Source: Thermoplasmata archaeon
GTDB lineage: Archaea > Thermoplasmatota > Thermoplasmata > Halarchaeoplasmatales > Halarchaeoplasmataceae
Direction of reading: 5' to 3'
Assembly: GCA_003551065.1 (NCBI GenBank)
Contig: PULU01000055.1
Coordinates: 1 to 47,151 of the forward strand
Length of the DNA: 47,151 nucleotides
Shown here: positions 955 to 41,678 of the stretch, piece by piece
How positions within the stretch are numbered: the stretch's first letter is position 1
Layout of the letters: every line of letters starts with the position of its first letter
Position numbers and translations under genes: made by a program
Notes under the pieces: model-generated
The model's database searches: none
Told to the model about the DNA's origin: nothing
The model's input: the letters and a program-made list of their open reading frames with translations, nothing else

Positions 955-3900
955 TTATATTGTTCTTCCGGCCAGTGTTGCGTCTTCGTTCATGTATACC
1001 CAGTATCCTTGGTATGCATTGACGGTTATATCAGATATCTCTGGATCTACATGTGTGTATGTCCACGTTTCCATGTTGTAACCTGGGCTGTTGATTGTAC
1101 TCCATGAACCATCAACGCTTGCTAGGAAGCTTTCTATAGTGACTTCTGTTTCAACTGAGGTATCCATATTGGTGCCTACTAAATTCCAACCCTCTTGGAG
1201 TGTGGTCGTAGGTGGAACATCGGTTGCGCCAGGTTCTTCAAACGTTATGTCGATAGTGGTTGGTCTTTCTACGTCGACTAACATCGCTGTAAAGGTGTCG
1301 AATTCTCCTTCATCTACGAGATCGACTGGGTCAGCCCACTGCTGATTATTGAGATCCCAAGCGTGCCAGTTGACTATATGGTCTGTGTCGGCACTCTCGA
1401 TTAAAGACCAATCCTCATGTGGATTTCTCGGCAGTGAAACCATGTTCCAACCTTCAGTTAAAGTTATAATGTCTTCCTCATCAGTTAGTTCTCTCTCAAG
1501 TATATCCGTTCTTAGATTACCATCTTCGTCTTCAACTTCACCGTCAACAGGTCTGACTTCTAGTTCTCCTAGATCATCTTCAAGCACTGTTTGATCGAAT
1601 TCTACTGCAATAATGTTGTGGTCAGCGACATGACTGACATCAACTATCTCCAAATCCGTATCGCCGAATGTGAATTCAAGGTCATCTTCAGTTATTTCCT
1701 CTCCTTCGACATTTCTAACGTTATATCCAAACTCTATCATCGCAGTGTTCATTCCAGTTTGGGCTTCAAAGTTGAGTATGTGTGGATTAGCATAGAGTTC
1801 GATAGTGTCTTCGTCTTCATTGCCCCACTGATCGGTAACGGTCAGTGTCACATCGTAGGATCCCACATGCTCAGGTGTGAAATCAACTTCCATACCAAAG
1901 AGTTCTGTAACCTCTCCTGTTGGATCCTCTATAGTCCAATTGTAGTATTCTAACTGACCTTCTTCAAGTTCATGACCAGATTCATTAGCATTGAGTGTAA
2001 CTTCCAATCCTCTCCAAGCTTCTATATCTTCTCCAGCGTGTGCAATCGGGTTCATTGTATCCAAGTAGAAGTTCCATCCCATCTCGTCTAGCACCGGATC
2101 ACTAACATGTATGACAGCATTTGCGAACATCTGGTTTGCTTCTTCTGTCCAGCCAGGATCGTTGGCTTCGCCGAAGAAACCGATTCCCTTAGCAGGTAGT
2201 AACACTTCGTTCAGATCATCGTTGACACCGACAGCTGGTCCTTCGAATCCTCCGCCGTAATCCTTTTCTGCAAGGATCTCACCGGAATAATCATCGAATA
2301 TAGAACCCCAATTTGTAGTACCGTCGAACATCAAGACATTGTCTCCTGCTTCACCAACATCCTCGAATATCGGATGATCCTCAAGTATTTCTAGGTGTTG
2401 TGGTGGATCCGTACCCAAACTCTCATCATCTCTGAAGCCAGGATCGTTTCTCACATTGTTAAGTCTGTAAACTCCGTCGGAATATGCTTCAGCTGTACCT
2501 CCTTGATTCGTATCAAGATATACAACACCTTGATCATCGTCTTTTTCTTCAAGGAAGTCTTCGGCTAATGTATCCGAACCAAATCTCTGAATCACGAAAC
2601 TGTCATAGTTCTCCATCTCATCAAGCAGTTCGTCAGCTTCAAGTGTATCTACGTTGAACTCGTCTTCTGGTAGATAATCCTCAAGTTTGTATTCAACTTC
2701 GTTCTCCTGCCAATTTTCTTCGTCGACGACTGCAACATTGATTTCACTGCCCATCAACTGTTCTTCAGTTAATTCATATTCGGATTGATCCGGACTTGCC
2801 GGAACTTCAACATGTGCTTCTAAGCCCCATGCAGAGTAAACCATCAGATCTGGTAAAGTATCCCAATCACCAGGTTCGTGTGGATCATCAAAGTTGATCC
2901 AACCTCCGTCGTTTACATCTGGATCGATTGTTCCGAATGTGAATTCATCATCCTCGGCCGGATCGTCTATTTCAATAACGATCCAATAATGGCCTGGATC
3001 TTCTATCTCAACAGACTCTGTAAGTTCGAGTTCTGCCCAAGTTTCACCGCCTACTGGTGTGTATTCTTCTGAGGATGCGATCCATTCTCCTGGTGCACCA
3101 CCATCATCTTCAGCTACATGAGCTTGGACGTGATTCGCAGCAGGATCGTAATCGAAGTATGCAACTTCAGATATGAATCCACCAACATCGTCTGAGAGGT
3201 CCAATATCATTCCACCGTACCAGACTTGTGGATTTGCCGCAGCTAATGCGTTATCTGCTTCGTCGGGTCTATGATCACCTTCGTACAACCAACGCCATTC
3301 ACCTTCTAGATCTCCATCGTATTCGAAGTGTGCTGTTATCTCTTTATCGTCGTCCATTATCACCGTTATCTCTTCTTCAGTTCCTTCGTAATCTCCAGTC
3401 CATTCCATGAATTCCCAATCTTCCTCTGGTATTGCCTCTAGTTCTACTTCTTCGTTTTCAAGGTAATTGGCTTCCTCTGGATAAATTTCGACTGTTCCGT
3501 CTCCTACTACGTTAACATCTAGAGTGTACTGCTCAGGGTTGATACTACCGATGTTGTAGTGCTCATAAGAAACTACTACGTACCAGTAATGATCTCTACC
3601 TCTGTCTTCAGTCTCAAATTCTCTTGTTGCTTCGAGAGTTGTATCCTCAGTAACTCCTGTGAACTCCTCTATCAGGTCATGAGTACCACCGTCAAAAAAT
3701 TCAACATGTAAGTCTTCTTCGTTCTGAGTGAAAATGTCGACTGAAAGCGTCTGCTCTAGATCTATAACTTCTTCACCGGGTTCTGGAGTTGGATTATCAG
3801 CATACGGAACTTCCATTTCTGATACTGAATCCTCATTCATCTCCATATTTTCGACTCTATCGACTGTTCTTACGACGTAGTTCCACAGCTCTCCATCGCT

Positions 3901-6900
3901 TGCCATACCTTCATCGATATAGCTGTATTCATCTAGTCCTTCTGCTTCAACAGTATCGATCATAGTGCTTTCGTCCCATGGACCATCTTCAGATTCGCTT
4001 CTGTAGATAACGTAATGTGAAGCATCATCAGCCCCAGCACCATCATCAGCAGAAGCATCCCATGTTAGCTCGTTACCGGTCACATCCCAAACATCATCGT
4101 CCCAATCAACTGAAAGGTTCTCAATTTGTTCAGGTGCTTCAGTATTTATGTCAGCGGAATCACTCTTCCATACAGGTTCTGGTGTATAAACAGTGAATTC
4201 CCAATCTTCTGAGGTGCCAGTTTCGATTCCATCGTCAACTTCTACATACCACTCGTAAGTAGTATCTGTTTCAAGTAGTGGGAAGAATCCAACAATAGAT
4301 TCTCCATTACCTATTCCAGATTGTGTATGATTGGCTACTTCATCTCCATCTTGATCTAAGATGTAGATAGTCGCCTCGGCGGCTAGATTATGATGAACCT
4401 CTACAGTCGCGTTCAGAACAGGACTGTGTGTTACATCTTCCTGGCCATCAAATGGCTCTGGATCAACTGCGGTAGGTGTGAAATGTTCTCCGACAAAGAA
4501 TCTCTCCTGGAACTCAGTGTTATCTGGGTTAATATCCTCATCATTTAGTGTTTCCATAGTCAAAAGATAGTCACTTGGATATTCTTCTGGAGTCCAATCT
4601 TCGAAATTCAACTCTGTCTGTTCTCCAACATCCAATTGGTCTATCATCATTTCATCATCGTATTCTTCCTCTGTATACTCGTTGGTGATTTCAACATCAT
4701 CTATAGTCCATCGATCATCCTCAAGAGCTTCTTTAGTGTAGAATTCCCAACCGATCATCACTTCCTCTTCTTCAGATGCCCATCTCGTTATATCGTAGGA
4801 GATTTGACCATCAGTGACATTGCTTCCTATTCTCCTGGATGTCTCTCCACCGTCGGTAGATATGAGTAAAGATCTCTCGTTTTCTCCTTCAACTTCAGAG
4901 TAGAATTCGAGCATGACTCTATGTTCACCTAAGCTACTGTCTGCTATTTCGGTCCATAAAACATCATGTTCATGGTCGTCAACAGCATTAACTTCCATGG
5001 TTTCAGTATCCTCATTCCATTCCCATGTATTATCGTTCTCATCTTTATCCTCTACAGTCCAATCTGCTGGGAGACCGTCAGAGAAATCTTCATCAATAGC
5101 TACATCTTCAAGAATCGGTTCGATAGTCATCTCAACAGGGATATCGGTAACTTCTCGATTTCCTAGATTGGTGACTGTACCGATCACTTCTTCCTCATAT
5201 TGGAAAATCGGTTCTTGAGGAGCATCGATACTGGTCGCTTCTAGATCGATAAGTATCTCTTCTACGTTCACCGGCCTTTCTATCGTTGAAGTTTCTGGGA
5301 AATCCTCTTCTGGATGATCTGCCGTCACATTGATCATGTATTCGCCTGTTTCTGAAGGTGTCCAATCCTCTAACTGAGCCGTGACTGTTTCACCGATATC
5401 TATATCGATCTCGACTGCATCTTCGTATTCTGTTATCCAATAGAAAATATCTACCTCAAATATATCCCAATTACAGAATGTTCCCATGTCTTCATCATCA
5501 TCACTGTGCCAAACGAAAGCTATCTGAACTTCATCTTCACCGTCAGCGTGTGCTGAGAGATCGAACTGTTGCTCACCATCGTCATCGTCTTCTTCGTTCC
5601 ATTCTTCTACAAGTTCCCATTCATCTCCATCATTTGTGACCAATAACTCAGCAGTAAATTGTGGATCAGAAAAGCTACTGCCGATTGTATGATCTATCTC
5701 AAGTGTTGTGCTTTCAGCTTCACTAGCATCTATCACTGGGGATATCAACCATTCCTCTTGTACGAATTCCCGGCTCACATCTACTGTAGCCATGTGATCT
5801 CCAGCAAATGTTTCATCCCAGTGCCAGGTCTCTGGTTCATCGCCTTCTCCATCTATAGTCCAATCGTCTGGAATCTCGTCTTCGAAATCCTCGTAAAAGA
5901 TATCATCGCCCATCACTATTTCAGCTTCGACTGGGACATCCTCTACATCAAAGTGACCCTCATTGATCAGATCTGCAGTCACAGGTTGTTCTTCATCCCA
6001 TGCATACTCCTCTGGTGAGGTGATCTCATCTACGACTATGTCAGTGTAAGAGTAAACTTCAAATTCCTCACTAGCATAGTCATTGTCTGGGTTTTCGTCA
6101 GTGTCTAGGTCTGTTTCGATTTCAACAATGTAATCTCCTTCAGAATCCTCGCCGGGCGTCCAGCTCTCAAAGGATATTTCCTTGAATTCTTGGATGTCCA
6201 ATTCAGCAGTTACCGTATCGGAATAAACTTCGTCTCCATCGATTTCTTCGATAGTCGCATGAACATCGAATTCCTCTTGGTAGGTACCGAAGTTTTCGAT
6301 CTCCGCTACAACGTCAGTTTCTAATATGGAAGTCTCATCAACAGGTGATATGACTTCATTGACACCAACGTCATGTTCGTTTTCAACGGTTATGTATTGA
6401 GTTGTATAATCATTTTCTGGATTCTCGTCATCTTCAAGTAAAGTTGTAGAATTTAAGAGATACTCTCCTGTTTCTGATGGATTCCAATCATCAAATTCTA
6501 CTGTTACGTGTTGTCCTTCGGCGATATGTATGGTTGTTTCATCTTCGTATTCTGTTTCTTCTGTGTCCAGATCGATGATCGTCGTCTCGACCGGCACGTA
6601 CATCTGATCATGTTCACCAAAGTTGTGGACGTTGACTTCAACCGAATGTTCGGTTTCACTGTTGACCCTTTCTTGAGGCGAAAGTACTTCAGTAACTCCG
6701 ACATCGTTTCCTAATCGTCCAGATACGAATTCGACCGAATTCGCCAATAGGGTCCAAGATTCTTCTGTCCATTCTGGATCGTCTGGTTCTACGAAGAAAT
6801 CAATACTCATCGCTGGGTACAGAATCTCATTTGCGTCTTCATCGATTCCAAATCCTTGACCAACGTCAGCTCCTTCATCATAACTCACTTCTGCGAGGTC

Positions 6901-9900
6901 TTCGCCAGAATAATCATGATAATGTGATCCGTAAACGATCCCTGTATCATCAAGGATACTGACAACATCACCAGCTTCACCGATATCTTCAAACACTTCA
7001 TGATCCTCGTAAATCTCTAGCTCGATAGGGCCGTTTGAAGAAGCTCCCCACCATTCAGCTGGGTCGTTTCTAACGTTATGTAATCTCGTTACAGCGTCAC
7101 CGTATCCTTCTGCAGTGAAACCTTCATATGAATCTAAGTACACTACACCCTGGTCATCATCTAATTCAGCAAGGAAATCTTCAGCTAAATCGTCACTACC
7201 AAATCTCCAAGGTACGAATCCTTCATAATTCTCCATTTCGTCAATTAGTTCATCAGCAGTCAGAGTGTCAACAGTGAACTCTTCAGAAAGATATTCTTCT
7301 AATTCTGATGCTATTACTCCTTCAAAGTAGTCAGTTTCATCGATCACGGCTATTTTGCTCTCAGCATAGAGACCTTCATTAGTCGATCCAAAGAGATCCT
7401 CATCTTCATCTTCATCTTCGTCTTCAGGAAGTCCAGGATCCTCATCTAAGTACCAAGCAGTTATCTCTCCGTCATGTTCAACGTAAAGGGCATCGTCGTT
7501 TTCATCATCTTCGGTAAGTTGGACTTGACCGTGGAAGAGACCTTCTTCTTCTTCACTTTCGATCAGTTCAACAGTGTAATTCCCTAGTTCATCTCCTTCT
7601 GCGTTAACACTAGAAACATTGATGTCATGAGTACCTTCTCCTTCAAGGATGATATCATTTAATGTGATGTTTGCAACATCTTCACCAGCATATTCGTCTT
7701 CTTCTATCATGATCTCTCCGTCTTTGTCTGGGATATCAACATGCAAGTCAGAAGGCACATTATAAGCAGTAAGTGCATAATCCTGATTAGCTTCTCCGTC
7801 ATTGTTAGAATCTTCAGGTATATTAGTACCAATAACCCTAACAGTATAACTGCCAGATTCTAACTGATCAGGATGGATGTAAACATTCTGAACATTGTTT
7901 ACTTCATCCCAGCCATCATCACTATAGTCAAAGTCTGCCATAACTTCTGCATCAGGGTGAGTAAAACCATCATCACTGACTCCATCACCGGAAAGGTCGA
8001 ATGCATTTCCTCTGATGAGCTCTCCACCTGGTGTTTCCACTTCAAGATCTAAATTATTCTTCAGTGTAGGAGTGCCTCCAGCACTGTCACCTTCGAGAGC
8101 GTTTTTATCAGTCCATGTAAGCGTTATCTTCAATGGTTCATCTTCGTCTTGATGGTTTATATCATATTCATCTACTTCACCGGTAGTCAAAAGTGATTCC
8201 TGATCTTCGAATTGGAAACCGATTGGATCATCTATAGGATATTCCAGCTTGGAAATATCAGGAACTCCCCAACCTTCGTCCCTATTCGGTATATGATCGG
8301 TATCACCTATCTCAGGGTCCATCTCATTAGCCGTATTGATAAGTATGGATTTTACCATCGCTGGACTTGGTGTTTCATCGTAATTTTGTTCGTACCAGTC
8401 AACTACTAGTGTTGCAGCACCAGCCACTAAAGGATTACCAAATGAAGTACCACTTGCTGCTACGTAACCACCACCGTCTAACGGTGTGTTCTGGGATAAT
8501 ACACTCTCGGATGGAGCGATAACATCTGGTTTAACACGGTTATCTTCAGTCCATCCTCTCGAACTTGCTCCATACATCAATTCAGGATTTTCATACCCTA
8601 AACCTGGGTTGTATGGTTGGTTACCTCCAACAGTGATAACATTCTTAGCATTTCCTGGACTACCTGTTTCCTGACTATAATCACCACGACCTCCATCATT
8701 TCCTGCTGAAACAGTTACGACCATAGGTCTGTTTTCGTCAGTATCTCTATCTGCGTCTCTTACAGCCTGATCAAAGATTTCATCCGTATCTACGTATTCA
8801 CCCATGGTTCCAGCTCCCCACGAATTACTATGGATGTATGCATCAGAACGTTGAGCTGGTTCCTCTACAATTGGGTAGTACTCTGAAGGAATGAATCCGC
8901 CACCATCGTCAAATATTTTTGTACCAAATATTTCTGACTCGTATGCTAGACCTTGACCCATATAATAAGGCATATCTCCGTCTTCAAACTCATCCCATGT
9001 CTCTCCAGTGCCGCGGTGTGTATCTCCAGTTACAAGACCAGTACAAGCTGTTCCGTGATAATGGCCATCTTGCCACTCATCTTCTTGTCCAAATCCGTAT
9101 CCACCGATAACTCTATCTGTGAAATCCTCTACACCGGCATCACCGACGGTTCCGTCTCCGACACCTGTATCTGCCGTAGTTATCGTTACGCCTTCTCCAG
9201 AATAGCCTAATTGATTTAGGTACGCACCATAATCTCCGTGCTGTCTGTATGGTTCTTGTGGATCTCCCTGACGTGGTGGAGGTGTAAGATCCTCATTGGT
9301 TGGATATTCATCATCCATAAACCATTGACCACCACCTATCAATTGGATATCCATCTCAGCATACAATTCGGGTTCAATATATGGTGAGATATGATAAACA
9401 TCAGAATCCATTGCAAGCTTTTCTAATTCTTCTATAGATCTTGCAGTTATTGTCAACCTGTATCCGTTATCTTGTAAGTTTTCAGCACCCAAAATATTCA
9501 AATCGGAATCGATCGTATTCAAAGTTGTCTCATCAAAACCGGGTGTTAGTCTTACATTAACAGGCATATCAAGTTCGAGTGCTTCATCTAACTGATGATG
9601 TAGCTTAAATTCAGGTTGATAAACACCTACCCATTCAACGAACTCGAAACTCTCGATATTTTTCGCTTGTTCTGGTGTCATAACTACTTCATAAGCATAG
9701 TTCGGCTGATAGTTTATAATATCTGCACCAGTGTCCTCTATTTCCGTTCTCCACTCTGGATTTACAGGACCTATCATGTCGATGATATATAGTCCTTCAG
9801 TTCCAGGTTCATATTCATCTATCATGAGCTCAGAGTCCAATTCAGGAATATCCATACTTGTATCGATACTACTTGTATCGATGGTATTTCCCTTTATGCT

Positions 9901-10209
9901 GAGTTCATTTCTATTGTCTAATCTTTTGGTATCATACTGTAATTCTAATTCCTCGACTCCTCTCGATGTTGTTCTGAGCAAAACGTTTTGCCCATAGTGG
10001 TCTATGATCTCTCCATATTCTTCTAAAACTTCTAGATCCTGGTCACTATCCAATCGGACCATAACCACTCTTTCTCCATCGCTAGCAGTTTCAAAAAGGG
10101 CAGCCTCGGAATCGTCACTCATCAGCAACATCGCAGGGATGGCTGAGCCGATCACTAGTATCACCGCAATCAACAAAACAGAAAGTACTTTTCTTCGTTT
10201 TTTTTCCAT
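955..10209 (-). CDS. Giant secreted multidomain subtilase (S8) with CARDB, jelly-roll, FN3 and PKD domains
   Basis: A 3084-residue extracellular serine protease. Residues 1-37 form a signal sequence and about 40-290 a long propeptide region. The subtilase domain (about 335-670) has Asp347 (TTADTGVGDG), His385 (HYHGTACTG), an oxyanion Asn near 505 (VSAGNDGG) and Ser589 (GTSFGNPLVAG), so it looks active. A beta-sandwich follows (about 675-800). Then come a DUF4350-like alpha/beta domain (about 955-1160), CARDB repeats (about 1170-1900) carrying two inserted MAM/choice-of-anchor-J-like domains (about 1437-1590 and 1702-1850), an Ig-like domain (about 1910-2015), FN3 (about 2027-2137), an InlB-type repeat (about 2224-2294), a beta domain (about 2300-2474), a second DUF4350-like domain (about 2486-2707), PKD (about 2724-2810), and two C-terminal GWNMVSLP/GWNLVG repeats (2913-3084). 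No C-terminal membrane helix is seen. GAGG precedes the ATG. Catalytic assignment is firm; boundaries and the smaller domain names are by eye. Confidence 0.93.
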   Translation of the reverse strand: MEKKRRKVLSVLLIAVILVIGSAIPAMLLMSDDSEAALFETASDGERVVMVRLDSDQDLEVLEEYGEIIDHYGQNVLLRTTSRGVEELELQYDTKRLDNRNELSIKGNTIDTSSIDTSMDIPELDSELMIDEYEPGTEGLYIIDMIGPVNPEWRTEIEDTGADIINYQPNYAYEVVMTPEQAKNIESFEFVEWVGVYQPEFKLHHQLDEALELDMPVNVRLTPGFDETTLNTIDSDLNILGAENLQDNGYRLTITARSIEELEKLAMDSDVYHISPYIEPELYAEMDIQLIGGGQWFMDDEYPTNEDLTPPPRQGDPQEPYRQHGDYGAYLNQLGYSGEGVTITTADTGVGDGTVGDAGVEDFTDRVIGGYGFGQEDEWQDGHYHGTACTGLVTGDTHRGTGETWDEFEDGDMPYYMGQGLAYESEIFGTKIFDDGGGFIPSEYYPIVEEPAQRSDAYIHSNSWGAGTMGEYVDTDEIFDQAVRDADRDTDENRPMVVTVSAGNDGGRGDYSQETGSPGNAKNVITVGGNQPYNPGLGYENPELMYGASSRGWTEDNRVKPDVIAPSESVLSQNTPLDGGGYVAASGTSFGNPLVAGAATLVVDWYEQNYDETPSPAMVKSILINTANEMDPEIGDTDHIPNRDEGWGVPDISKLEYPIDDPIGFQFEDQESLLTTGEVDEYDINHQDEDEPLKITLTWTDKNALEGDSAGGTPTLKNNLDLEVETPGGELIRGNAFDLSGDGVSDDGFTHPDAEVMADFDYSDDGWDEVNNVQNVYIHPDQLESGSYTVRVIGTNIPEDSNNDGEANQDYALTAYNVPSDLHVDIPDKDGEIMIEEDEYAGEDVANITLNDIILEGEGTHDINVSSVNAEGDELGNYTVELIESEEEEGLFHGQVQLTEDDENDDALYVEHDGEITAWYLDEDPGLPEDEDEDEDEDLFGSTNEGLYAESKIAVIDETDYFEGVIASELEEYLSEEFTVDTLTADELIDEMENYEGFVPWRFGSDDLAEDFLAELDDDQGVVYLDSYEGFTAEGYGDAVTRLHNVRNDPAEWWGASSNGPIELEIYEDHEVFEDIGEAGDVVSILDDTGIVYGSHYHDYSGEDLAEVSYDEGADVGQGFGIDEDANEILYPAMSIDFFVEPDDPEWTEESWTLLANSVEFVSGRLGNDVGVTEVLSPQERVNSETEHSVEVNVHNFGEHDQMYVPVETTIIDLDTEETEYEDETTIHIAEGQHVTVEFDDWNPSETGEYLLNSTTLLEDDENPENDYTTQYITVENEHDVGVNEVISPVDETSILETDVVAEIENFGTYQEEFDVHATIEEIDGDEVYSDTVTAELDIQEFKEISFESWTPGEDSEGDYIVEIETDLDTDENPDNDYASEEFEVYSYTDIVVDEITSPEEYAWDEEQPVTADLINEGHFDVEDVPVEAEIVMGDDIFYEDFEDEIPDDWTIDGEGDEPETWHWDETFAGDHMATVDVSREFVQEEWLISPVIDASEAESTTLEIDHTIGSSFSDPQFTAELLVTNDGDEWELVEEWNEEDDDDGEQQFDLSAHADGEDEVQIAFVWHSDDDEDMGTFCNWDIFEVDIFYWITEYEDAVEIDIDIGETVTAQLEDWTPSETGEYMINVTADHPEEDFPETSTIERPVNVEEILIDLEATSIDAPQEPIFQYEEEVIGTVTNLGNREVTDIPVEMTIEPILEDVAIDEDFSDGLPADWTVEDKDENDNTWEWNEDTETMEVNAVDDHEHDVLWTEIADSSLGEHRVMLEFYSEVEGENERSLLISTDGGETSRRIGSNVTDGQISYDITRWASEEEEVMIGWEFYTKEALEDDRWTIDDVEITNEYTEEEYDDEMMIDQLDVGEQTELNFEDWTPEEYPSDYLLTMETLNDEDINPDNTEFQERFFVGEHFTPTAVDPEPFDGQEDVTHSPVLNATVEVHHNLAAEATIYILDQDGDEVANHTQSGIGNGESIVGFFPLLETDTTYEWYVEVDDGIETGTSEDWEFTVYTPEPVWKSDSADINTEAPEQIENLSVDWDDDVWDVTGNELTWDASADDGAGADDASHYVIYRSESEDGPWDESTMIDTVEAEGLDEYSYIDEGMASDGELWNYVVRTVDRVENMEMNEDSVSEMEVPYADNPTPEPGEEVIDLEQTLSVDIFTQNEEDLHVEFFDGGTHDLIEEFTGVTEDTTLEATREFETEDRGRDHYWYVVVSYEHYNIGSINPEQYTLDVNVVGDGTVEIYPEEANYLENEEVELEAIPEEDWEFMEWTGDYEGTEEEITVIMDDDKEITAHFEYDGDLEGEWRWLYEGDHRPDEADNALAAANPQVWYGGMILDLSDDVGGFISEVAYFDYDPAANHVQAHVAEDDGGAPGEWIASSEEYTPVGGETWAELELTESVEIEDPGHYWIVIEIDDPAEDDEFTFGTIDPDVNDGGWINFDDPHEPGDWDTLPDLMVYSAWGLEAHVEVPASPDQSEYELTEEQLMGSEINVAVVDEENWQENEVEYKLEDYLPEDEFNVDTLEADELLDEMENYDSFVIQRFGSDTLAEDFLEEKDDDQGVVYLDTNQGGTAEAYSDGVYRLNNVRNDPGFRDDESLGTDPPQHLEILEDHPIFEDVGEAGDNVLMFDGTTNWGSIFDDYSGEILAEKDYGGGFEGPAVGVNDDLNEVLLPAKGIGFFGEANDPGWTEEANQMFANAVIHVSDPVLDEMGWNFYLDTMNPIAHAGEDIEAWRGLEVTLNANESGHELEEGQLEYYNWTIEDPTGEVTELFGMEVDFTPEHVGSYDVTLTVTDQWGNEDEDTIELYANPHILNFEAQTGMNTAMIEFGYNVRNVEGEEITEDDLEFTFGDTDLEIVDVSHVADHNIIAVEFDQTVLEDDLGELEVRPVDGEVEDEDGNLRTDILERELTDEEDIITLTEGWNMVSLPRNPHEDWSLIESADTDHIVNWHAWDLNNQQWADPVDLVDEGEFDTFTAMLVDVERPTTIDITFEEPGATDVPPTTTLQEGWNLVGTNMDTSVETEVTIESFLASVDGSWSTINSPGYNMETWTYTHVDPEISDITVNAYQGYWVYMNEDATLAGRTI

Positions 10210-31364: not shown

Positions 31365-31870
31365 TGATGGTTCTAGTTCGATATCACAAACCAAGTGGAG
31401 ATACCAGAGAGTGGGAACAGACACTACTGGCGGATAGAGAGGAAATGATCGTATCCACCTTTCGATTCCGCCTTAAAAAACCTTTTTCACCTTTTGATTC
31501 CCGTATTTTGATCAAAGACGGTTATTATGGAGTTATGTTTGATCTATTTGACAATTGGTATAACGTTGTCAAAGTATACGATAAAAATAAAAATCTAGTT
31601 GGGTATTATTCAGATATCCGAACCCCACCAATAAGGATAAAAAATGGTTATGAAGCTACAGACCTGTTCCTAGACTTTTGGGTTGAACTAGATAGAAGCT
31701 ACATAATTTTAGACCTCGATGAATTTCAGGTAGCTAATTTATCTAAAGATTTGAAGAACCAGGCAAGGGATGTCGCAAAAAAATTGAAAGATATGATAGA
31801 AAACAATGTGTATCCGCCAAAGATTGTTAGTTCGTTCAATATATCTGCAGATGAAATCGGTGAGATTTAA
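31361..31870 (+). CDS. DUF402 (FomD-like) domain protein
   Basis: A 169-residue protein whose second half carries the DUF402 pattern: VGYYSDIRTPPIRI, DLFLDFWVELDRSYIILDLDEF, then a helical QARDVAKKLKDMI. Family members include FomD, a nucleotide-phosphohydrolase, and the C-terminal part of the RNA-binding FAU-1, so nucleotide or RNA chemistry is likely but the substrate is open. The frame opens GTG-ATG-ATG (31361, 31364, 31367), and one of these overlapping the SatP stop is used. Confidence 0.8.
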   Translation: MMMVLVRYHKPSGDTREWEQTLLADREEMIVSTFRFRLKKPFSPFDSRILIKDGYYGVMFDLFDNWYNVVKVYDKNKNLVGYYSDIRTPPIRIKNGYEATDLFLDFWVELDRSYIILDLDEFQVANLSKDLKNQARDVAKKLKDMIENNVYPPKIVSSFNISADEIGEI

Positions 31871-32012
31871 TCTATGAAAATCGATATCTAGGTGTTGACC
31901 GAAAAAGCCGGCGGGTACAAAACTTATTTCCGATTATTTATAATATGTTTTTAATACCCTCGCCTATCTTCTAGTATATAAACCTATATAAAGCGTCATA
32001 CAGTTTCTTTAA

Positions 32013-32036
32013 AATTCCCTAAGGAAATAGACCAGG
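32013..32036 (+). other. Degenerate ORB-like element
   Basis: TTCC-CTAAG-GAAATA followed by GACCAGGAG resembles the stronger box at 32160 in the same orientation, with one extra base in the spacer and a poor G-run. Also a TTCC/GGAA dyad. Confidence 0.3.
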
Positions 32037-32159
32037 AGTTGTCTGACGAAAGCTTTTTTATGGATTAATACATCGTTACATTTCCCTAGCCCGCTCCTTT
32101 AATGCGGTCAAACCGGGTGGAAAGCAGATGCCTTAACAGGTGTATATAGTCCGTTTCGA

Positions 32160-32183
32160 TTTCCACATGAAATAAAGGGGTGG
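32160..32183 (+). other. Origin recognition box (ORB)-like element
   Basis: TTTCCACATGAAATAA continuing into AGGGGTGG matches the archaeal ORB pattern: a TTCCA...GAAA dyad followed by an A-tract and G-rich arm of the type AAAGGGGT. Orc1/Cdc6 winged-helix and AAA domains bind such sites. The box lies 107 bp before orc1. Confidence 0.6.
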
Positions 32184-32289
32184 TTAGGCATAAGCCCTGA
32201 TTATCAAAGTATGGTCATAATCGTATTTAAACGATATCACATACCTTCAAGTCCAGAAGATTGATCATTGATATCAGGGGGAGATAAAT

Positions 32290-33573
32290 ATGGAAGGAAA
32301 CGTATTCAGCACATACATAAGTTCAAAGCCCCTGTTCAAAGGGGATCGGGATATCTTAAGACCATCCTATATACCTGAGGAGTTACCTCACCGTGAGAAA
32401 TACATAAATGATTTAGCTTCAATTATGGTAACAGCTCTTCGAGGTAACAGACCATCTAATGTATTGATATTCGGTAAAACAGGAACTGGTAAAACAGCAG
32501 TAGTTCGCTTTCTAGAAAGGGAGATAAACAGATTGAAGAGAGAATCATCTAAAAGTAATCTTGAAGACGATTTCAACAATGAAAATATAGATAGGGTTCA
32601 ATATGCATATATCAACTGTGAAGTAGTTGATACTCATTATGGCGTTATGAAAAATATAGGTAACAAATTCGTCGAGAAATGGAGCGAACAGATACCTTTT
32701 ACTGGTTGGCCTATGGAAAAAGTCTATGAATCTTTAAAGGAACGAATCGACGAAAAACCTAGGGTCGTCGTTATAATCTTGGACGAATTGGACAAATTAG
32801 TAACTAAAAGCGGAGATTCAGTACTATACCACTTATCTAAAATAAACTCTGAACTTGAGAATAGTAAAGTAAGCTTGATCGGTATATCTAATAATCTGAA
32901 ATTTACAGAATTTTTAGACCCGCGTGTGAGGAGTCGTTTAGGTGAGGAAAAATTGATATTCCCACCCTATAACGCCGATCAACTCAAGGATATTTTATCC
33001 GACAGAGCGAATAAAGCATTCGAGAGCAACGTGATAAGTGAAGAGGTCATATCCCTCTGTTCTGCCTTGGCAGCTCAAGAGCACGGCGACGCAAGGAGAG
33101 CTTTGGATCTACTCAGAGTATCTACCGAGATCGCTGAAAGAGAGAACTGTAAGAACATCAATACTAATCATGTTTACAAAGCAAAGAATAAGATAGAACA
33201 AGATTGTGTCAGAGAAGCAGTTATCACGCTGCCTACTCACTCTAAAATAGTATTGTATTCGATATTATTGAGTGAGAAAAACGGACACGATAAACTGACA
33301 ACTGGAGAGGTTTACACAGGTTACAAAGAACTGTGCATACGCTCTGGAATGGATCCCCTCACCCAAAGAAGGATCACCGATCTCATATCTGAACTAGACA
33401 TGTTAGGTTTGATCAACGCTAGAGTAAAGTCGTTCGGTCGACGAGGAAGGACTAGAGAGATACAAGCTAGTGTACAGAATGGAGATACCATCGATATAAT
33501 AGAGGATGACGAAAGTATAAAATCCGTAGATGGATTATCCCTTTCTTCTGTGAAACAGACAAAACTGATATAG
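32290..33573 (+). CDS. orc1/cdc6: Orc1/Cdc6 origin-binding initiator ATPase
   Basis: A 427-residue replication initiator. Walker A GKTGTGKT is at 62-69, Walker B VVIILDELDKL has Asp165-Glu166, sensor 1 is IGISNNLKF, and the arginine-containing DPRVRSRLGEE and sensor 2 GDARRALDLLR segments follow. A winged helix fills the C-terminal 120 residues (LTTGEVYTGYKELC, GLINARVKSFGRRGRTREIQ). It would bind ORB sites and help load MCM. CAGGGGGAG is 5-6 nt before the ATG. It is convergent with the signal peptidase gene, with T-runs between them. Confidence 0.96.
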   Translation: MEGNVFSTYISSKPLFKGDRDILRPSYIPEELPHREKYINDLASIMVTALRGNRPSNVLIFGKTGTGKTAVVRFLEREINRLKRESSKSNLEDDFNNENIDRVQYAYINCEVVDTHYGVMKNIGNKFVEKWSEQIPFTGWPMEKVYESLKERIDEKPRVVVIILDELDKLVTKSGDSVLYHLSKINSELENSKVSLIGISNNLKFTEFLDPRVRSRLGEEKLIFPPYNADQLKDILSDRANKAFESNVISEEVISLCSALAAQEHGDARRALDLLRVSTEIAERENCKNINTNHVYKAKNKIEQDCVREAVITLPTHSKIVLYSILLSEKNGHDKLTTGEVYTGYKELCIRSGMDPLTQRRITDLISELDMLGLINARVKSFGRRGRTREIQASVQNGDTIDIIEDDESIKSVDGLSLSSVKQTKLI

Positions 33574-33595: not shown

Positions 33596-34498
33596 TTACT
33601 TTTTTATTATCCTTTTCTTATGTGAATTCCCATTATCATCTTCTTTGAGATCTTTCTTAGTATCTCTTTTATAATGATTTATAGAATATTCTAAAACTAT
33701 GGGTGCCGAAATGATAACTATAATCGAGATTACTAGATTCCGCCATGTATTCGAAGGTATGCTATCGGTTCTACCCATATATATCAATTTGATCGAACCG
33801 AACCAAGGTAATTCTCCTCTAGCTTTACCTTCGATCCACTCTATTTTTACCGGTTCTTGGATATTTCGCAGATTACCTTGATCGTAAATACCCCTACCAT
33901 TCCTGATATTGTTGTCACCCATGGTGATAAAACCATCGTGTCTATAACCATTGTCCTCATCGAGAAAGTTATCTAAGTCTATCTCTAAGATAACATCCCT
34001 GTGCCCATAGTCATAGATTATGATATTCTCTGTAAGACCATAGACTCTTTCACCTTCGTCACTCTCCCAATCCACTCCATAAGTTAAGTCCGCAAGAGTA
34101 GGGACGTCGAATCCATCTGCAGTTTCATTGTATTCTATGTACACCACTGGTCGATGGATAACTGGAGTTTTGTCTTCTGACCCATCTGGACGGAATATGA
34201 TCACATCGCCATACTGGCCATAACTACTATAACCAGAGTGTCTACCCTCTACATAAGAAACAATATCATCACGACAGTTGATAGACTTAACAGCGACTAT
34301 ATCACCGGTGTCTATAACCCCTATTTGACTTGCTGGAGGCTCTCCCTCACCGTGACTCATACTGGGAGATTCGATGACAACCATAGGAGGCCATCGTCCC
34401 GTATAAACATAAAGTGAACTTAATATGATACCTAATATCAAGAGGGCAATAGCTGCGTCCTTCAAAATCGGTATCAATTCATCTTTGAGATCTTCCAT
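33596..34498 (-). CDS. Signal peptidase I, archaeal S26B type
   Basis: A 300-residue membrane protease that cuts signal peptides from secreted proteins. N-terminal helix about 13-31, then Ser46 in ESPSMSHG, His115 in TPVIHR (the archaeal/ER-type His in place of Lys), and Asp195 in MGDNNIRN. A second helix lies at about 253-270 with a basic tail. The two-helix layout and a long insert between His and Asp boxes are within the family's range. The many secreted proteins in the window are likely clients. Confidence 0.92.
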   Translation of the reverse strand: MEDLKDELIPILKDAAIALLILGIILSSLYVYTGRWPPMVVIESPSMSHGEGEPPASQIGVIDTGDIVAVKSINCRDDIVSYVEGRHSGYSSYGQYGDVIIFRPDGSEDKTPVIHRPVVYIEYNETADGFDVPTLADLTYGVDWESDEGERVYGLTENIIIYDYGHRDVILEIDLDNFLDEDNGYRHDGFITMGDNNIRNGRGIYDQGNLRNIQEPVKIEWIEGKARGELPWFGSIKLIYMGRTDSIPSNTWRNLVISIIVIISAPIVLEYSINHYKRDTKKDLKEDDNGNSHKKRIIKK

Positions 34499-39599: not shown

Positions 39600-41678
39600 T
39601 TATACAAATTTATACTTTCCCTGTCTTGGCTGCATTATCTGTCCGTTCTGTCTCATCTTCTGTAATTCCTTTCTAACTTTTTCCTGGGATATTCCAGCTT
39701 TTTCACCGCGTTCGATGATCTCATCTTCAGGAGCACCACCGTCATGCAACTGTTCAAGCTCTTTGATAATATCTCGTATGTCATGCATTATAGTTCTTTC
39801 GCTTGAAGATATACCTGAAGCCACAAAATCTATGTCCAATCCACCTTCAGAAGTGGAAGCTACTTCGTTCAAGAAATATCGAGTCACATTGATAGCCCGT
39901 TTTGCATCCTCGTTGGTCACTTTTTTTCTAAGATGAGCTCTAGCACTGGCCTCGGATAACCTTACTAGTGATTCTAATTGTCTTGCAGTGATCGGTATAG
40001 CGTCTTCAGTACCTCCACCTGCTCTTATGTCTAGGTAAAAGCTTTCGAGTTCATCTCTAGCATCATCAGTCATGATCGGGTTGACCGTCTTAGCATAAGA
40101 AACATACTTCTTCAAAAAGTCCTTCTCGAAGGGAGGTACGAACCTCTTCTCCGGTTCATAAGTATCATCATTTATCATCTTCTCACCGACCTGATGCAGT
40201 TCCAATATGTGTTGAGCAATATTTCGGTCTTTTTCTTTATCTGGCTCATCCATTATAGCAAAGATCAGATCGAAACGAGAGATCAACGGAGGTGGTAGTT
40301 TGATCTGCTGGGATATATTTTCATGTTTTTCAAATCTACCTAACTCTGGGTTGGCAGCCCCAAGAACCGCACAACGGGAGTTCAATCTTGCATTTATACC
40401 TGCTTTAGCCACAGATATACTCTGCTGTTCCATAGCCTCATGCATTGCGCTTCGATCTTCATCTCTCATCTTATCCAATTCGTCAACTGCAGCTATACCA
40501 TTATCTGCTAATACCAGGGTACCAGCTTCCAAGATCCATTGACTCTCTCCCATGACTTCTTCCCTGACAGCTGCGGCGGTCAGCCCTGCTCCAGTCGTTC
40601 CCTTTCCCGATGCATACATCCCCCTAGGCGTCAGGTCAGAGATATATCTCAACAACTGGGATTTTGCGGTTCCTGGATCACCTACTAGTAATATGTGGAT
40701 ATCTCCCCTTACATTGCTACCATCCGGTGTCTTTTTCTTTACTCCGCTGAAGAGCTGAAGTGCTAAACCAGTTTTTATCATCTTCATACCCTGTATACTA
40801 GGAGCTATGGAATTCACTAATTTTGAAAATAAACGGGGATCTTTTGATGTGTCCAATATCTCTTTCTTATCCTCATCGGATAACTTAACGTCTTTATACT
40901 CATAATCCTGGACTTCGAAACTATTGAGTCTCATGAAGATATTGAATGTTCTAGATTGAGATCCCCCCGGTCCACTTTTTGGAGTCCCATCTAGGATGCC
41001 GTTCATAACAATTCTATCACCGGGTGAAACCGTACCCACTAGGTCTTCTCTCGTCCAGCCCTTTAATCTTTGTGGCTGCTCCCCTCCCCTAAGGTCTTCG
41101 GGGCTTTCTTGTATCTCCATAGTTTGATAGTCAGTGAACTCAGACTCCTCCAAGATGAGTTTAAAACTGGTTTTATTAGAAGATTTACCACAGCCTTGGC
41201 ATTCCATCGGTTCTTCGATCTTACCTGCACTCTGTTCTAATCTTAAAGTAGCTCCACATCTCATGCACTGGAAAACCGCTGTAGTCAACCTTGGTCGGAC
41301 CTCTGTTGCCTTTCGTACTAAACCTTTCACCCCGATGAATTGAGTGAGGTCGTCTGCCCTTAACTCTCTGATACCTTTATTATGTGCTTCTGGAAGATCT
41401 TTTATCCTAACCCTTATTGGTAATTCATCGTAACTCGAACCAAGTATCTCGTTTATGGCTTCAGTCGCAGCCTCCAAACACACTCTTGGTTTTTCGTGGA
41501 TATATTCCGGAAAATCGACTTCGAAGTGATCCATCAATTCTCCATAAGTTATAACCAATGATCTATCATCCGGATAGTTCTCCGCTATCCTAATTATCTC
41601 TGATGTGAACCCTTCTTCTTCGAAGAAGAGTTTGAAATTTTCCCGTATCTCATCTTCAGAATATTCTTTCATCTTCAT
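39600..41678 (-). CDS. mcm: MCM replicative helicase
   Basis: A 692-residue hexameric helicase. The N-terminal domain includes a zinc site Cys138, Cys141, Cys160, Cys163 (CMRCG and CQGCG). The AAA core has Walker A GDPGTAKS (333-340), Walker B LADNGIAAVDELDKM with Asp399-Glu400, sensor 1 AAANPE-like (LGAANPELGRF) and the arginine finger SRFDLIF. A winged helix ends the protein (EKAGISQEKVRKELQKMRQNG). No intein is present. ATGs at residues 1 and 3 are both possible. It leads the mcm-DUF424-nmd3-nop5 run. Confidence 0.97.
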   Translation of the reverse strand: MKMKEYSEDEIRENFKLFFEEEGFTSEIIRIAENYPDDRSLVITYGELMDHFEVDFPEYIHEKPRVCLEAATEAINEILGSSYDELPIRVRIKDLPEAHNKGIRELRADDLTQFIGVKGLVRKATEVRPRLTTAVFQCMRCGATLRLEQSAGKIEEPMECQGCGKSSNKTSFKLILEESEFTDYQTMEIQESPEDLRGGEQPQRLKGWTREDLVGTVSPGDRIVMNGILDGTPKSGPGGSQSRTFNIFMRLNSFEVQDYEYKDVKLSDEDKKEILDTSKDPRLFSKLVNSIAPSIQGMKMIKTGLALQLFSGVKKKTPDGSNVRGDIHILLVGDPGTAKSQLLRYISDLTPRGMYASGKGTTGAGLTAAAVREEVMGESQWILEAGTLVLADNGIAAVDELDKMRDEDRSAMHEAMEQQSISVAKAGINARLNSRCAVLGAANPELGRFEKHENISQQIKLPPPLISRFDLIFAIMDEPDKEKDRNIAQHILELHQVGEKMINDDTYEPEKRFVPPFEKDFLKKYVSYAKTVNPIMTDDARDELESFYLDIRAGGGTEDAIPITARQLESLVRLSEASARAHLRKKVTNEDAKRAINVTRYFLNEVASTSEGGLDIDFVASGISSSERTIMHDIRDIIKELEQLHDGGAPEDEIIERGEKAGISQEKVRKELQKMRQNGQIMQPRQGKYKFV

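Follow-up and report, generated by a model that had tools for sequence, protein, structure and literature searches.

Archaeal replication origins are usually predicted from Orc1-binding boxes (ORBs) that lie beside orc1/cdc6. An earlier note on the DNA studied here had proposed a candidate origin in a gene-free gap directly upstream of the initiator gene, and the question is whether this gap is an origin or a control region of orc1. The window, the whole 47,151-nucleotide stretch that was analysed, is contig C96 of a 1.47-Mb assembly (G000) of 166 contigs that is 64% complete. We favour, at a probability of roughly 60%, a reading in which the gap is an autoregulated promoter and leader of orc1 and the chromosomal origin most likely lies at an inverted ORB pair on contig C161 of the same assembly.

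The gap and its neighbourhood

The 419-bp gap was confirmed to be free of genes; it separates a DUF402 gene, which ends at 31870, from orc1/cdc6. The initiator was likewise identified by its Pfam domains, and the MCM gene, placed about 8 kb away in the earlier note, has its near end 7.3 kb from the gap. The features of the window used below are the following.

31871..32289, + strand: intergenic gap upstream of orc1/cdc6, 419 bp; putative orc1 promoter/leader with an Orc1-binding box
31973..31993, + strand: AT-rich tandem TATATAAACC/TATATAAAGC block (direct repeat D4), kept in most family members
31995..32025, + strand: first GTC element, GTCATAC with a downstream T/A-rich tract; putative promoter P1, in 13/15 members
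32041..32061, + strand: main GTC element GTCTGACGAAAGCTTTTTTAT, palindromic GTCTGAC with a BRE/TATA-like tract; putative promoter P2
32160..32183, + strand: ORB with its G-string towards orc1; PWM score 34.8
32290..33573, + strand: orc1/cdc6 initiator gene, Orc1-1 type; Pfam Cdc6_C, Cdc6_lid and AAA
33596..34498, - strand: signal-peptidase-like gene adjoining orc1; 38% (tblastn) to the signal-peptidase-like protein beside orc1 in G017
39600..41678, - strand: MCM replicative helicase gene; Pfam MCM, MCM_OB and MCM_lid

The encoded Orc1/Cdc6 belongs to the ORB-binding Orc1-1 type. Its best solved match was 2qby_A (Cdc6 homolog 1), which we take to be the Sulfolobus protein, followed by 2v1u_A. 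The adjoining initiator gene expected of an oriC is thus present at the gap. A second, divergent Orc1/Cdc6 paralogue (30% identity) was found at C42:194-1267 of the same assembly. The gene at 33596-34498 gave no match of its own in a Pfam search; a signal-peptidase-like neighbour of orc1 was also found in outgroups within the class. The relatives of the window's orc1 are Thermoplasmatota, several of them with names pointing to hypersaline settings; of the named relatives, 'Ca. Saliniplasma halalkaliphilum' is the closest (92% Orc1 identity). The source organism is a thermoplasmatotal archaeon of the Haladaptatiplasma/Saliniplasma type.

The ORB at orc1

With an ORB matrix built from relatives, in which the scored site was itself included, the strong box of the earlier note at 32160-32183 (TTTCCACATGAAATAAAGGGGTGG) was recovered at 34.8 bits, against 14.6 bits for the next best site of the window. 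Of 15 family members, 13 have kept the box; it is degenerate at L038 and absent at L035. By genome, it was missing in G004 (best score -2.1) and degenerate in G008 (12.5), both of which retain the ORB pair described below. The box is far above chance, and Orc1 very probably binds this site.

The gap thus has at least one genuine ORB, with dyad and G-string, as an oriC should. The two inverted ORBs of an oriC were not found, since a search of the 419-bp gap with the matrix gave no inverted partner. A weaker box in the same orientation, proposed earlier at 32013-32036, scored -32.5; no register within 8 bp scored above -2.1 and the site was not conserved as an ORB, and on the matrix and the alignment with relatives it was rejected as a second ORB. 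The inverted repeat said to bracket the strong box does exist (32128-32138/32181-32191, 11 nt, 82%), but the bracketing was not seen to be conserved in relatives.

In six of 15 relatives (L033, L008, L041, L034, L039 and L044) a mini-ORB-like dyad, TCCACNNGAAA, without a G-string, was found some 300 bp further upstream than the orc1 ORB, roughly at positions -334 to -367 relative to orc1. The background frequency of such dyads was 2 in 164 kb. In some species the dyad overlaps or follows the stop codon of the upstream gene. A mini-ORB was absent upstream of the orc1 ORB in the window itself.

Putative promoter elements of the gap

The orc1-upstream DNA of 15 family members was compared for conservation. 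The most conserved feature of the gap is GTCTGACGAAAGCTTTTTTA together with its GTCATAC partner near 31995, both overlooked by the earlier note; the former reads GTCTGACGAAAG-CTTTTTTA from 32041. GTCATAC lies 46-48 bp upstream of the main GTC element in 13 of the 15 members (absent in L040 and L038), and the AT-rich tandem block sits just upstream of it. The order of the blocks is kept in the family: TATA-rich block, first GTC element, second GTC element with its T-rich tract, ORB and orc1. The gene upstream of the gap varies between genera while these elements persist, and the elements therefore belong to orc1.

The main element is private to this locus to a large degree. GTCTGACGAAA (32041-32051 in the window) was present at orc1 in 16 of 16 family genomes; GTCWGACGAAA is single-copy in the window's 1.47-Mb assembly, where it is located at orc1, and with the T-tract it has exactly one copy in each of seven further family genomes. 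In other relatives GTCTGACGAAA has further copies at scattered places. These counts led to the rejection of GTCTGACGAAA as a motif of promoters in general or of a regulon. The tract behind the main GTC element matches the family promoter words AACCTTT, AAACCTT and CCTTTTT (words over-represented at 30-40 bp before the genes of the family), and the two GTC elements are therefore read as putative tandem promoters of orc1. Promoter elements and an initiator box stand together upstream of the initiator gene, with the ORB between the presumed BRE/TATA-like tract and the start codon, as would be expected of an autoregulated promoter.

The spacing from the main GTC element to the ORB was 85-87, 107-109 or 118-121 bp, values about whole helical turns apart. 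This phasing is suggestive only, as a naive p of about 1.5e-4 takes no account of relatedness; it hints that proteins at the GTC element and the ORB touch each other.

Base composition and RNA folding

The AT-rich tracts of the earlier note came down to one 80-bp stretch near 31933 (25% GC). With 37% GC (23rd percentile; window 40%), the gap as a whole is ordinary, and it was the GC-richest of nine gaps compared. A structured leader RNA or small RNA encoded in the gap, of which the conserved blocks would be features, is very improbable. Short complementary arms, such as GACCGGAA...TTTCGGTC, do occur upstream of the ORB in several relatives, but the folding of 15 homologous segments was near the shuffled background (mean z of -0.77 and -0.39) and an Rfam search of the gap gave no match. 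A structured RNA was rejected on both counts.

An inverted ORB pair at gcvT/lpd

The exact ORB core occurs only three times in the 1.47-Mb assembly: once at orc1 (32160-32183) and twice on contig C161 (locus L079), as an inverted, outward-facing pair that flanks gcvT, lpd and a small membrane-protein gene.

5121-5144 of C161, - strand: first ORB of the pair
8172-8195 of C161, + strand: second ORB of the pair

The arms are 3.0 kb apart and each is extended by GGGGYCTCCCCC; the pair ORBs run on into a GGGG-nnn-CCCC inverted repeat. An inverted pair with its G-strings outward and its arms 3.0-3.2 kb apart was found in 15 of 16 family genomes. These genomes have essentially three ORB cores, the single one at orc1 and the pair, with few stray one-mismatch matches. 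The AT-richest 80-bp stretches of C161 lie between the arms, starting at about 6276-6289 (19% GC, lowest 0.06% of the contig), and coincide with the gap that holds the divergent gcvT and lpd promoters.

The two arms of one genome differed at a mean of 1.2 positions in 19, against 2.1 for an arm and the orc1 ORB and 2.2 for arms of different genomes (loci L079, L137-L144, L172 and L174-L176). This likeness suggests concerted change of the arms, which might arise by gene conversion or by co-evolution with Orc1.

Of the features looked for in an oriC, the C161 locus has a retained inverted ORB pair with G-strings and an AT-rich element between the ORBs. It lacks an adjoining initiator: orc1 is on another contig than the pair in every family genome, and in G015 it is at least 51 kb from the pair. 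The interval between the ORBs, of 3 kb and with genes inside, is also long compared with known archaeal origins, which counts against the pair as oriC.

The pair in the class

An ORB pair 0.5-10 kb apart, in all cases outward-facing, was carried by 21 of 35 other genomes of the class, including G042, in which it spans the ends of the single contig. In Methanomassiliicoccales-like families and several others the pair either immediately precedes orc1 or surrounds it; it is away from orc1, as in the window's family, in G018, G023, G026, G028, G038, G047, G055 and G057. The small membrane-protein gene is found at the pair in many genomes of the class and the signal-peptidase-like gene tracks orc1; in G017 and G021 the two genes share one neighbourhood. 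Genomes of group f3 combine the pair with a third ORB, located near -56 relative to orc1, a layout expected of the ancestor. The simplest history, as read from these arrangements, would be a single ancestral locus that broke up, leaving orc1 at one place and the origin at another.

The second ORB of G055 (L200, C64:69459-69482) is inside the protein-coding gene gcvT, and that of G021 (L150 8375, a weaker box) is perhaps inside an M42 peptidase gene.

A broader proposal is tentative and has somewhat less than even odds. The class-wide origin would be a movable module, made of the outward G/C-extended ORB pair and the small membrane-protein gene, that became detached in several lineages; orc1 of the window's family would retain a single ORB together with its own GTCTGACGAAA double promoter, single-copy and helically phased with the ORB, as a dedicated switch for initiator dosage.

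GC skew

In G055 a single 284-kb contig carries both the pair and orc1, with 177 kb between them. The cumulative GC-skew minimum of this contig coincides with the pair (68.5-69.5 kb), at position 69.5 kb, and there was no step at orc1, which speaks indirectly for the pair as the origin. A skew step at the pair was sought in G023, G038 and G018 and none was found, which counts against it. In family contigs the skew around both loci, plain and at third codon positions corrected for gene strand, gave no consistent signal. The uninformative skew of the other genomes tested, those of the family included, fits the low amplitude reported for archaeal skew (PMC12999951).

Origin or promoter

The claim that the gap is a candidate origin holds as far as the genuine initiator-binding box goes; the box is single, the inverted pair is elsewhere, and the remaining conserved features of the gap are promoter-like. 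A bidirectional ORB-type origin needs an inverted pair, and the single-ORB gap is therefore less likely to be one. In the Sulfolobus oriC1 each of the two ORBs is individually required (PMC12141716), and deletion of either ORB impairs the activity of oriC1 of Haloarcula hispanica (PMC3936714). The orc1 ORB was lost or degraded in G004 and G008 and the pair was kept in both, so that the pair is favoured as the origin.

That the orc1-proximal region is nevertheless the origin, or the main one, where Orc1 would bind the single ORB and melt the AT-rich tract, is quite improbable. The region does lie beside an Orc1-1-type gene, with a genuine ORB, an AT-rich 80-bp stretch at 31933 and, in six of 15 relatives, the mini-ORB dyads, and oriC adjoins orc1 in many archaea (PMC4010727). 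Against this, the lone ORB has no inverted partner and is dispensed with or decayed in two species, the gap is not AT-rich overall, a better-formed inverted pair exists elsewhere in the same genomes, and orc1 showed no skew step in G055 and no consistent one in the family. An arrangement of two origins, in which the gcvT/lpd pair would serve as the main one and the orc1 locus as a secondary or dormant one, is also rather unlikely. It would account for conserved ORBs at both loci, and several origins, including dormant ones, are frequent in archaea (PMC4595724). The mini-ORB-like dyads of some members, which make the orc1 locus more elaborate than a plain promoter, speak for it and count against the promoter reading; the missing inverted pair at orc1 and an ORB that two species can dispense with speak against it. 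The orc1 locus is possibly a former origin.

For the favoured reading, an autoregulated orc1 promoter with the origin at the pair, we infer from sequence Orc1 binding, promoter function and autoregulation at the gap, and origin activity at the pair. Two GTCWKAC-plus-TATA promoter elements, private to this gene, would control transcription of orc1/cdc6, and the single ORB would lie between the transcription start and the start codon. Orc1, once bound there, would shut off or adjust the transcription of orc1, like DnaA at the boxes of the dnaA promoter. The chromosomal origin would most likely be the inverted, outward-facing, GGGGtctCCCCC-extended ORB pair at C161:5121-8195. The pair would have stood next to orc1 in the ancestor and become separated from it in the window's family.

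Comparison with known systems

The initiator type of the window is that of the ORB-type oriC1 of Sulfolobus, Pyrococcus and haloarchaea (Orc1-1/Cdc6), and an ORB likewise stands beside orc1 and a signal-peptidase-like gene; the haloarchaeal oriC1 context comprises a GTP-binding protein, cdc6 and a signal peptidase (PMC4010727). The window gap differs in having one ORB without an inverted partner, with the inverted pair at another locus. The gcvT/lpd pair resembles oriC1 of H. hispanica, with its inverted ORBs and G-rich inverted-repeat enhancer (PMC3936714), in its adjoining G/C-rich inverted-repeat extensions. It differs in that a stretch of about 3 kb, with genes in it, separates its arms and orc1 does not adjoin, whereas in H. 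hispanica the G-rich repeat is inside the two ORBs and cdc6A adjoins (PMC3936714). Within the same class, the ORB pairs of Methanomassiliicoccales are near orc1/cdc6.1, with a G-rich extension already noted (PMC4153887); in the window's family the pair is detached from orc1 and flanks gcvT/lpd. In bacterial dnaA autoregulation through DnaA boxes (cited in PMC3936714), an initiator box is likewise in the initiator's own promoter, apart from the origin. The present case would differ in its archaeal Orc1 and ORB and its family-specific GTCTGAC promoter element, with a regulation that is predicted.

If the favoured reading is true, the rule of the ORB adjoining orc1 misplaces the origin in the window's family and in several others of the class, and a genome-wide count of ORBs together with their mutual orientation would point to the likely origin directly. 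The locus would also be an archaeal parallel to dnaA autoregulation, and natural variants of it exist, namely G004 without the ORB and G008 with a degraded one.

Other observations

No relatives were found in a search of viral contigs. At 955-10209 (- strand) the window encodes a protein of 3084 aa with a subtilase domain and PKD/InlB-like repeats.
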